The notes below the pieces were generated by a model that did not search any database, was not told where the DNA came from, and was given only the letters and a program-made list of their open reading frames with translations. Positions 59,399 to 63,358 of a DNA stretch of 64,000 nt are shown one piece after another; positions within the stretch are counted from its first letter, which is position 1, and every line of letters begins with the position of its first letter. The translations under genes and the position numbers were made by a program. The stretch spans positions 1 through 64,000 of the forward strand of contig CANMTR010000004.1 of NCBI GenBank assembly GCA_947500825.1, given 5' to 3'. Origin of the DNA: an uncultured Paracoccaceae bacterium (GTDB taxonomy: Bacteria; Pseudomonadota; Alphaproteobacteria; Rhodobacterales; Rhodobacteraceae).

Positions 59399-59953
59399 AT
59401 GGACGTGATCGAGACACCCGGCATCGGGCCGGACAAGACGCTGCTTCTGGTCGACGACGACGAGGCGTTCGTCCGGCGACTGGCGCGAGCCATGGAGAAA
59501 CGCGGCTTCGCCGTGGAGGTCGCCGACAGCGTCGCCGTCGGCCGGTCCATGGCACTCCAGCGGCCGCCCGCCTACGCCGTGGTCGACCTGCGGCTGGGGG
59601 ACGGCAACGGGCTCGACGTGGTCGAGACGATCCGCGAAAAGCGGGCCGACGCGCGCATCGTCGTCCTGACGGGATACGGCGCCATCGCCACCGCGGTCGC
59701 GGCGGTCAAGATCGGGGCGACGGACTACCTCTCGAAGCCCGCCGACGCGAACCAGATCACCGCCGCGCTGGTCGCCGACGGAGAGGACCTTCCTCCGCCG
59801 CCGGAGAACCCGATGTCGGCCGACCGGGTGCGCTGGGAGCATATCCAGCGCATCTACGAGCAATGCGACCGCAACGTGTCCGAGACGGCGCGGCGCCTCT
59901 CCATGCACCGCCGCACCCTGCAACGCATCCTGGCCAAGCGCAGCCCGCGCTGA
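59399..59953 (+). CDS. regA: ActR/PrrA/RegA response regulator
   Basis: LLLVDDDEAFVRRLARAMEKRGF; AVVDLRLGDGNGLDVVE; C-terminal Fis-type HTH CDRNVSETARRLSMHRRTLQRILAKRSPR. Confidence 0.96.
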   Translation: MDVIETPGIGPDKTLLLVDDDEAFVRRLARAMEKRGFAVEVADSVAVGRSMALQRPPAYAVVDLRLGDGNGLDVVETIREKRADARIVVLTGYGAIATAVAAVKIGATDYLSKPADANQITAALVADGEDLPPPPENPMSADRVRWEHIQRIYEQCDRNVSETARRLSMHRRTLQRILAKRSPR

Positions 59954-60823
59954 TCAGGCGGCCTGCCGCCTGAGCCAGCCCATCAGGGCCTTGAGCGTCG
60001 GCGACACCCGGTCCTCCCGCGTCAGCATGTGGTAGGCGAGGTCGCTGTCGGCCTCCTCGAAGAGAACCTCGACCTGGCCGCGGTCGATGTCGGCCTGGGC
60101 GATGACGCGGGGCAGGATGCCGACGCCGTATCCCGAGCGCACCGCCTCCAGCGCCATGGTGATGGTGGGAAAGCTTCGGATCGACACCGTGTCCACGTCG
60201 AGCCCGTTCTGCGCCGCCCACAGGATGTCCTCGGTGTTCATCTGCTCGGTCAGCCAGTCGTAGTCGGCCAGTTCCGACAGGTCGGTGGCGCGGGTCGGGA
60301 TCAGCCCGGTGCGGGCCACCACCGCGTGGCCTGCGTCCATCAGCCGCTCGCAGGCCAGCCCCGGCCAGGGCCCGCGCCCGTAGCGCAGCGCGATGTCGAA
60401 GGTCTGGGCGCGCAGGTCCACCAGCTCGGGCGAGGGGACGAGCTCCAGCTCGATGCCCGGATGGCGCGCCCAGAAGTCGCCGATCCGGGGCATCAGCCAG
60501 TTGGCCGCCAGGGAGGGCGTCAGCGAGATCCTGAGCGGCTTGGCCACGTCGCGCTCCACCAGGTCGGCGGCGGCGGTGGCGATCACGCCGAACCCCTCGG
60601 TCAGGGCCGAGGCCAGGCGCCGGCCCTCCTCGGTGGGGCGCATCCCCGCGCCCTCGCGCACCATCAGCACGCAGCCGAAATGGGTCTCCAGCCGGCGGAC
60701 ATGCTGGGCGATGGCGGCATGGGTGACGTTGAGTTCGCGCGCGGCGGCCGAGTAGGCGCCGCAGCGCGCCGCCGCCTCGAAACCGCGCAGCGCCTGGAGG
60801 GAGGGGACGTGGTGCCAGTCCAT
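59954..60823 (-). CDS. hvrB: LysR family transcriptional regulator, HvrB-like by context
   Basis: LysR HTH LQALRGFEAAARCGAYSAAARELNVTHAAIAQHVRRLE; next to regA and upstream of ahcY. Confidence 0.85.
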   Translation of the reverse strand: MDWHHVPSLQALRGFEAAARCGAYSAAARELNVTHAAIAQHVRRLETHFGCVLMVREGAGMRPTEEGRRLASALTEGFGVIATAAADLVERDVAKPLRISLTPSLAANWLMPRIGDFWARHPGIELELVPSPELVDLRAQTFDIALRYGRGPWPGLACERLMDAGHAVVARTGLIPTRATDLSELADYDWLTEQMNTEDILWAAQNGLDVDTVSIRSFPTITMALEAVRSGYGVGILPRVIAQADIDRGQVEVLFEEADSDLAYHMLTREDRVSPTLKALMGWLRRQAA

Positions 60824-60999
60824 GCCCGTCAAGCTAGCGGGGAGGGGCCCGCCGCGCCAGCGGGCGGATGATTGCGGGGGGCGGCGTGCGCCGTTCCCCG
60901 CGCATGAAAGCTGAGCTTACAACCTGCAAATCTTCCTGACTCGCGACGCGGTACGCCGGACCCTATATCCAAGATGCAAGCGGAGAAAAGGAGATAGCC

Positions 61000-61092
61000 G
61001 TGCTTACGTCCCTGGCTAACCGTATCGTCGCCACATTCCGCCCTCAAGGGACCACGCGCAAGCCCGGCCTGTCCCTCTGGGCCCAACGTTGA
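61000..61092 (+). CDS. short ORF 1, 30 aa (GTG start)
   Basis: aaggagatagcc-GTG; (M)LTSLANRIVATFRPQGTTRKPGLSLWAQR*. Confidence 0.6.
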   Translation: MLTSLANRIVATFRPQGTTRKPGLSLWAQR

Positions 61093-61109
61093 AAGAAGGA
61101 GATACCGCC

Positions 61110-61235
61110 ATGCTGACGATCCTCGCGAACAGCTTCGCCACCGCCACCCGTCGCGACGAGAAGGCGCCCTCCGCCAACCCGCTCAGCCGGGTGCGCGCCA
61201 ACGGCCTGCAGCTGCCCCAGCGCAAGACCCGCTGA
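61110..61235 (+). CDS. short ORF 2, 41 aa
   Basis: aagaaggagataccgcc-ATG; MLTILANSFATATRRDEKAPSANPLSRVRANGLQLPQRKTR*; N-terminus resembles ORF 1. Confidence 0.65.
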   Translation: MLTILANSFATATRRDEKAPSANPLSRVRANGLQLPQRKTR

Positions 61236-61826
61236 TCAACACCGCGCGATCAGCTCCGCGTGCCGCCTCGTGAAGGCGGCGCGCACGTCCCGCGGGGGGC
61301 GGAGCACGATATCGAGCCCCGCCGAAAGCTCCGGGTCGGGACGACCGAAGAACCGCGTCGCCTCGGCCTCGGAGAACCCCGCGATCTGCACCGCCTCCAT
61401 CCGGGCCGATATCCGGTCCGCCCGCTTGATGCGCTGCTTGATCCGCGGCGGCAGCGCCGCCGGCAGGCCGAACCTGATATGGATCGCCGCCGCGAGCCGC
61501 GCATCCAGCGCCTCGTAATCCGGTCCCACCGCCGCCTTCACGGGCGAGATCATGTCCCCGATCACGTATTCCGGCGCGTCGTGCAGGAGCGCGGCCAGGT
61601 GCCAGCGCGGATCGGCCCCCGGCCAGGCGCGCGCGAACAGCGATTCCACCAGCAGCGAGTGCTCGGCCACCGAATAGGGGTGGTCGCCCCGGGTCTGGCC
61701 GTTCCAGCGCGCGACGAAGGCCAGCCCATGGGCGATGTCCTCCACCTCGATGTCCACGGGGGTGGGGTCCAGCAGGTCCAGCCGCCGCCCCGAGAGCATG
61801 CGTTGCCAGGCGCGGGTCTGCGTCAT
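61236..61826 (-). CDS. HD-domain phosphohydrolase (YfbR-like)
   Basis: [38 protein letters not shown] signature. Confidence 0.88.
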
Positions 61827-61963: not shown

Positions 61964-63358
61964 ATGGCCGAAAATCATATCGTCAAGGATATCGCCCTCG
62001 CCGGCTACGGCCGCAAGGAGATCGCCATCGCCGAGACCGAGATGCCCGGTCTCATGGCGCTGCGCGAGGAATACGGCGACGCCCAGCCCCTGAAGGGCGC
62101 GCGCATCGCCGGCAGCCTGCACATGACCATCCAGACGGCCGTCCTGATCGAGACGCTGACCGCGCTGGGCGCGGAGGTGCGCTGGGCCTCGTGCAACATC
62201 TTCTCCACCCAGGACCACGCGGCGGCGGCCATCGCGGAGAGCGGCGTGCCCGTCTTCGCCATCAAGGGCGAGACGCTGGAGGAATACTGGGCCTATGCCG
62301 ACCGGATCTTCGATTTCGGCGACCAGCCCGCCAACCTGATCCTCGACGACGGGGGCGACGCCACGCTCTACATCCTTCTCGGCGCGCGGGTCGAGGCGGG
62401 CGAGGAGGAGCTCATCGCCGCTCCCCAGTCCGAGGAGGAGACGGCCCTCTTCGCCCAGATCCGCACCCGCATGAAGGCCAGCCCTGGCTGGTTCGCCCGC
62501 CAGCGCGAGGCCCTCAAGGGCGTGAGCGAGGAGACGACCACGGGCGTCCACCGCCTTTACGAGCTCAAGAAGCAGGGCGGGCTGCCCTTCCCGGCGATCA
62601 ACGTCAACGACAGCGTCACCAAGTCCAAGTTCGACAACAAGTACGGCTGCCGCGAGAGCCTGGTGGACGGTATCCGCCGCGCCACCGACACGATGATGGC
62701 CGGCAAGGTCGCGGTCGTGTGCGGCTACGGCGATGTCGGGAAAGGCTCGGCCGCCTCCCTGCGGGGCGCCGGCGCGCGCGTGAAGGTGACCGAGGTCGAT
62801 CCGATCTGTGCCCTCCAGGCGGCGATGGACGGGTTCGAGGTGGTGCTGCTGGAGGAGGTGGTCGCAAGCGCCGACATCTTCATCACCACCACCGGCAACC
62901 GCGACGTCATCCGCATCGAGCACATGCGCGAGATGAAGGACATGGCGATCGTCGGCAATATCGGCCACTTCGACAACGAGATCCAGGTCGCCAACCTCAA
63001 GAACCACAAGTGGACCAACATCAAGGACCAGGTGGACATGATCGAGATGCCCTCGGGCGCTCGGCTCATCCTCCTGTCCGAGGGGCGGCTTTTGAATCTC
63101 GGCAATGCCACGGGGCATCCGTCGTTCGTGATGTCGGCCTCGTTCACCAACCAGGTGCTTGCCCAGATCGAGCTGCACACCAAGGGCGGGCAGTACGAGA
63201 ACGACGTCTACATCCTGCCCAAGCACCTCGACGAGAAGGTCGCGGCGCTGCACCTGGACCGGATCGGGGCCAAGCTGTCGAAGCTCGCCCCCGAGCAGGC
63301 CGCCTATATCGGCGTGACGCCCGAGGGCCCGTTCAAGCCCGAGCACTACCGCTACTGA
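61964..63358 (+). CDS. ahcY: adenosylhomocysteinase
   Basis: [75 protein letters not shown]-terminal [10 protein letters not shown]. Confidence 0.98.

Follow-up and report, generated by a model that had tools for sequence, protein, structure and literature searches.

The DNA analysed here (the window, 64,000 nt in length) carries a locus that we read as a divergent pair, in which a LysR regulator of the GcvA/HvrB type faces away from a short operon, ORF1-ORF2, its putative dedicated target; judging from sequence, we put the probability of this reading at roughly two in three. By comparison across genomes, ORF2 is demonstrably genuine and ancient, and belongs to a family of protein-coding genes (25-70 aa) that is linked to this LysR across Rhodobacteraceae. 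This family, apparently undescribed and present in more than 100 genera of marine and photosynthetic bacteria, is a new small-protein family whose LysR regulator is likely dedicated to it.

The divergent locus and its small-protein family

A preliminary description had placed two micro-ORFs between an HvrB-like regulator and ahcY, and both are indeed there, 17 nt apart. The parts of the locus are the following.

59399-59953: response regulator (Pfam Response_reg and HTH)
59954..60823, minus strand: LysR-family regulator, GcvA-type/HvrB-like; ATG at 60823 (MDWHH...), a start chosen because the N-terminus M[DNE]W is conserved
60905..60921, plus strand: putative LysR operator (recognition site) TGAAAGCTGAGCTTACA, with 11/12 consensus positions of TGTAAG-N5-CTTACA, from the 123-locus profile
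60933..60944, plus strand: second conserved block TTCCTGACTCGC, candidate activation site / -35 region, from position-specific conservation in the 123-locus profile
60964..60969, plus strand: predicted -10 element TATATC, aligned with the conserved A at profile position 60
60988..60993, plus strand: Shine-Dalgarno of ORF1, AAGGAG, read from the sequence, 6 nt ahead of the GTG
61000..61092, plus strand: ORF1, GTG start, 30 aa, VLTSLANRIVATFRPQGTTRKPGLSLWAQR, the promoter-proximal cistron
61096..61101, plus strand: Shine-Dalgarno of ORF2, AAGGAG, read from the sequence, 8 nt ahead of the ATG
61110..61235, plus strand: ORF2, ATG start, 41 aa, MLTILANSFATATRRDEKAPSANPLSRVRANGLQLPQRKTR, member of the LysR-linked small-protein family
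61236-61826, minus strand: HD/YfbR-like nucleotidase gene; its stop codon and that of ORF2 abut

Strong Shine-Dalgarno sites had been announced for both starts, and an AAGGAG does precede each ORF. In the LysR protein, Pfam recognises both domains of the GcvA group, HTH_1 (1.1e-17) and LysR_substrate (2.7e-37), and the top NCBIfam model is the GcvA subfamily (8e-62), at 209 bits against a curated cut-off of 288 that is not reached. The order response regulator, LysR, ORFs, antisense gene and ahcY-like ORF (start at 61964, past the antisense HD/YfbR-like gene) sets the regulator between regA and ahcY as expected of HvrB, and resembles the R. capsulatus arrangement with regA, hvrB and ahcY. On synteny, the window LysR may be orthologous to R. 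capsulatus HvrB; the 1994 hvrB study is said to include a small ORF neighbouring hvrB in that species. The segment 57216-59953, which directly adjoins LysR, holds a sensor kinase, a SCO1/SenC-like protein and the response regulator, apparently regB-senC-regA.

Related loci were gathered through the LysR protein from GTDB genomes, from the window's genus (15 genomes) and from about 300 Rhodobacteraceae genomes, nearly all from different genera. Of 131 LysR loci, most of which stand for one Rhodobacteraceae genus each, 118 have an ORF matching the family profile on the strand opposite LysR; among the 131 are a few duplicates of one locus (e.g. L031/L047) and a few loci whose LysR is truncated or unrelated. 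The family ORF is divergent from LysR and usually starts 94-104 nt (about 98 nt) from the LysR start; a diverged short ORF is found at equal distance in several profile-negative loci (L122, L146, L208, L210 and L040). Conversely, when the small-protein profile was used alone, blind to LysR, all 29 of the 29 top-hit loci fetched had LysR next door. Within the window's genus the small ORF is present in 10/10 genomes with LysR and in 0/5 without it. A search of plasmids for the LysR found none.

The members share the N-terminus MLxI[FLY]Axx[FL]xxATR, followed by a variable, Arg-rich tail. ORF2 carries this N-terminus (MLxI[FLY]Axx[FL]xxAT[RG]) and reaches +28 with a profile built on the first 15 residues of the family, a score equalled by 0 of 5000 shuffles; with profile A1 it gives an E of 2.2e-14, A1 itself including ORF2. 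As a single query ORF2 gave matches at E 0.01-1 that were mostly chance, among them L004 and L012, which later proved true members by profile. No Pfam (E up to 1) or NCBIfam family was found for either ORF1 or ORF2.

The codon positions of the family gene vary unequally. Over codons 2-15 of 105 loci, mean nucleotide entropy at positions 1/2/3 is 1.20/0.82/1.69, and the same holds for the tail motifs RWLPxGHW (0.43/0.28/0.95) and WDAPxHW (0.49/0.58/1.01). Furthermore, L058 and L059 form a close pair whose ORFs differ by four substitutions, every one of them synonymous by inspection; their upstream leader has changed more and bears an indel. The reading of dN/dS uses this single pair and the entropy of codon positions only. 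Because of this codon-position bias, the comparison shows, at the level of sequence, that the family gene is selected as protein. Conservation in relatives with synonymous bias was the test that the preliminary description had set for itself, and the bias at wobble positions over the 105 loci and in the tail motifs answers it. The same bias, together with the family-profile score, led us to reject ORF2 as a chance ORF.

Two loci have tandem family copies downstream of one operator, L042 (at +101 and +405) and L039 (at +101 and +382), independently of each other. A separate observation concerns genome G300, in which a 25-aa family copy, MLNIFANTLRVATRNDTANSGTKRK, is found at an ahcY locus without LysR (L057, 2159-2236 of the reversed locus), LysR and a second family copy being located on another contig (G300:C105).

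The neighbourhood of the pair varies between loci: about 50 have ahcY/HD, about 39 have convergent ccoP/ccoO and others an ABC transporter or dapA, and in all these settings the family ORF remains beside LysR. Of the 41 ahcY-type loci that were scored, 40 have an antisense gene between the small ORF and ahcY, and L211 is the only one with ahcY directly downstream; in most ahcY-type loci this position is taken by the HD/YfbR-like gene. Since the gene follows LysR elsewhere, the antisense gene intervenes and the strict operator is unique in the window genome, the small gene is, on this comparative reading, tied to LysR and not to ahcY. The HvrB-type circuit of ahcY plus a small ORF that had been suggested is therefore retained in part: the small ORF does stand beside LysR with an operator, but ahcY is set apart by the antisense gene.

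Operator, promoter and number of targets

A profile of the gap upstream of the small gene over 123 loci displays TG[TA]AAGCC-N-AR-CTTACA, then 15 nt, then TGACTCGC within TTCCTGACTCGC, and an A that is conserved at 60 nt from the operator start. In the 123 loci the operator agrees with the 12-position consensus at 8 positions or more, with a mode of 11, compared to 7 in shuffled gaps. ORF2 is likewise divergent from LysR behind a TGTAAG-N5-CTTACA operator. Transcription of the window genes is predicted to start near 60976, which would put the palindrome centre near -63 and the second block at about -40 to -33; this fits the classical spacing of LysR activation. A generic sigma-70 scan called no promoter in the 60964-60969 region.

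We propose that LysR would bind TGTAAG-N5-CTTACA (~-63) and the TTCCTGACTCGC block near -35, and in this way activate the small gene. In most loci the operator starts a few nt from the LysR ATG, at the very same offset of 1 nt in 63 of the 123, and by abutting the start codon of LysR in most species it may also silence transcription of the regulator itself. The window operator lies 81 nt from the LysR ATG, through a GC-rich insertion, compared to the usual ~1 nt, and autorepression would be less direct there. The suggestion that the small ORFs are likely products of the adjacent LysR's control is thus borne out by a conserved operator and promoter, as far as sequence can indicate.

The site at 60905 is the only match in the window genome at up to 2 mismatches. 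Across the family, the strict pattern (at most 1 mismatch) is found in 78 of 298 genomes, with one match each, all beside LysR: 76 adjoin an already listed LysR and those of G160 and G218 a LysR found on inspection, while a reversed control pattern gave 4 matches in the same scan. Given how strict the pattern is, the 220 of 298 genomes with no match are not to be read as devoid of the system. Because the strict operator was in no family genome seen more than once, and then beside LysR, this old regulator seems to serve chiefly for turning on a single small protein that has been overlooked. The broader model of one regulator and one target across Rhodobacteraceae and other Alphaproteobacteria, in which the only strong site of LysR would control one microprotein carrying the HvrB-like physiology, is advanced tentatively, at somewhat less than even odds. 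LysR boxes can be degenerate, and other places, such as ahcY, may carry weaker sites. R. capsulatus HvrB is indeed reported as an activator of ahcY, according to the title of a 1994 paper (Buggy 1994), reference 80 in PMC8632094; this counts against the one-target model and would have to be explained as indirect or as acting via weak sites.

When the same pattern was scanned class-wide, LysR, operator and small ORF were found together in other families (G505, L276, and G519, L281), with small ORFs beginning MLSILGNSYMNATRQ... and MINILNALVTEATRQ... respectively. In G426 (L279) the LysR type and the operator are kept and the next ORF, read from its translation, is GFA-like (glutathione-dependent formaldehyde-activating). 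Two further matches, L274 and L275, have no such LysR and look like chance.

The first cistron and other readings of the locus

ORF1 starts 95 nt past the operator start, which is the canonical place of the family gene, and given this distance ORF1 and ORF2 are read as one short operon; on sequence they look like a bicistronic target of the window operator. ORF1-like cistrons occur in the sister species L047 and L048, with the common C-terminus [LI]S[LI]WA[QH]R (LSLWAQR in the window), where the changes are mostly at third positions. Over the whole ORF, the differences between the window and L047 at codon positions 1/2/3 number 15/9/12, with no overall wobble bias. A different ORF occupies the place of ORF1 in L054, and no ORF1-like cistron was found in L050 and L051. 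ORF1 is thus probably more than a chance ORF and probably translated, and we regard it as a genus-level extra cistron, promoter-proximal and of uncertain origin.

In the preliminary description the two ORFs were seen as a duplicated family with paralogous N-termini, hence as recent tandem copies of one gene. Six of 13 N-terminal residues are identical between them (p = 0.004 by shuffling, for a comparison picked after the similarity had been seen), tandem copies do occur in L042 and L039, and ORF1 holds the canonical position relative to the operator. However, ORF1 lacks the family N-terminus and scores only -4 against the family N-terminal profile (p = 0.03) compared to +28 for ORF2, and the ORF1 sequences of the sister species, at -11 (L047, MIITMINKLV) and -15.5 (L048, MLDFMTRWRS), do not show the match to ORF2 at all. 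The paralogy is therefore weakly supported, and we consider it rather doubtful that both ORFs are recent copies.

A second alternative leaves the operon as it is but closes the loop, with the small protein acting back on LysR as an antagonist or co-effector. Co-occurrence with LysR in the genus, the close linkage and the lack of any other strict operator in the genome would all agree with such feedback; on the other hand, the stray copy of G300 (L057) persists at the ahcY locus with no LysR beside it, and the kinship with DUF1127 proteins points to other partners, namely the sensor kinase PhoR or RNA (PMC12501420). Hence we hold feedback on LysR to be unlikely.

The short transcript could also act as a small regulatory RNA, the ORF being incidental or secondary. 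In enterobacteria the sRNA GcvB lies beside GcvA, and the layout here, a GcvA-type LysR with a short divergent transcript, is the same. VtlR, another alphaproteobacterial LysR, activates the AbcR small RNAs (PMC7486931, PMC12595884). Against a GcvB-like role, third codon positions are the most variable in both the N- and C-terminal blocks, the predicted 5' leader is unconserved apart from its purine richness, the window transcript folds no better than shuffled sequence does (z = 0.30) and an Rfam search of the window gave 0 matches. What is conserved is consequently the protein and not the RNA, and an sRNA as main product, rejected on the wobble-position bias, seems quite improbable. Leader peptides that control a downstream gene via attenuation or translational coupling are barely credible: the ORFs are short with strong ribosome-binding sites, and ORF1, 17 nt upstream, could couple to ORF2, but the next gene past ORF2 is on the opposite strand, with an antisense gene ahead of ahcY and convergent cco genes leaving neither as a co-oriented target, there is no regulatory codon run and no intrinsic terminator was found 3' of ORF2, for which reasons a leader for ahcY or cco was rejected.

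The dedicated divergent pair thus remains the preferred reading, and features of the protein allow a role to be proposed for it. The preliminary description spoke of short basic peptides with an amphipathic N-terminus; indeed, the hydrophobic moment of the first 14 residues exceeds the shuffled mean in 99% of 105 members (mean z 1.48) and the Arg content of the family is 15.8%. The small protein may be, on weaker grounds, an Arg-rich adaptor related to DUF1127 proteins, whose amphipathic N-terminus might dock on a membrane or protein partner and whose basic tail might bind RNA or a sensor protein; the broad physiological effects of the regulator could then be relayed through it. Such activities have precedents among DUF1127 proteins: those of Agrobacterium and E. 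coli bind PhoR, and CcaF1 of R. sphaeroides binds RNA (PMC12501420).

This kinship is carried by one full member and a short motif. The member is L180 (G135), whose small ORF, at the equivalent position and 93 nt away from the start of LysR, combines the family N-terminus with a full DUF1127 domain (1.3e-10) and has WDAPTW near its end; the motif, of the W[DN]APxHW type, is found in 12 members, and the DUF1127 proteins in L241 and L246 finish with it too. L180 may be an evolutionary link between the family and DUF1127 proteins. It is the sole matching member: DUF1127 (PF06568) was found neither in ORF1 and ORF2 nor in nine other members scanned, and the window ORFs were rejected as direct DUF1127 members given that neither has a Pfam match. 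Apart from the DUF1127-bearing member, no Pfam or NCBIfam model recognised the family, despite its more than 100 genera and near-invariant operator. A literature search, with most subscription journals outside its scope, found no paper describing the small gene. With its identification, a regulator that entered the literature in 1994 gains a concrete candidate target, and the proposed mechanism is directly testable.

Comparison with known systems

R. capsulatus HvrB is, like the window regulator, a LysR between the regA region and ahcY. The hvrB of PMC8632094 is a LysR between ccoP and ccoG, as in the cco-type loci here, and the gene most often inserted there. The passages of that paper on hvrB differ from our account in making no mention of a small gene, and describe hvrB as 'immediately downstream' of a terminator-like motif, HRC-8-4. 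In seven cco-type loci (L142, L149, L156, L160, L162, L163 and L188) the stretch that separates the small ORF from the convergent ccoP holds a hairpin whose loop, AGGAAACGCGCGAACAG, is conserved, within 130 nt past the small ORF stop. This hairpin is probably the published HRC-8-4, matched by its description rather than by consensus; if so, these genes would carry the motif at their 3' ends, and it would not directly precede hvrB.

The family resembles the DUF1127 proteins (PF06568: YjiS, CcaF1 and the Agrobacterium SDPs; PMC12501420) in size, in Arg content (~14% compared to the family value given above), in the WDAPxHW tail motif of some members and in the whole domain of L180. It differs from them by its own N-terminus and by being tied to one LysR.

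With VtlR/LsrB of Rhizobiales (PMC12595884, PMC7486931) the system shares a LysR whose strongest targets encode short Arg-rich proteins, VtlR of Brucella chiefly controlling DUF1127 small proteins and AbcR2 (PMC12595884). The VtlR box, GCAT-N3-TG-N3-T (PMC7486931), is not what the 123 gaps conserve, and since the box differs the LysR here was rejected as VtlR/LsrB. Moreover, VtlR targets are scattered and include sRNAs, most proteins here are without the DUF1127 core, and LsrB reportedly occurs in Rhizobiales only and shares an operon with trxB. The likeness nevertheless hints at a theme that may recur in Alphaproteobacteria, in which a LysR regulator is devoted to short proteins rich in Arg.

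Finally, GcvA-GcvB of enterobacteria is alike in pairing a GcvA-type LysR with a divergent short transcript, and differs in that the transcript here is under selection for its protein, and not its RNA, sequence.
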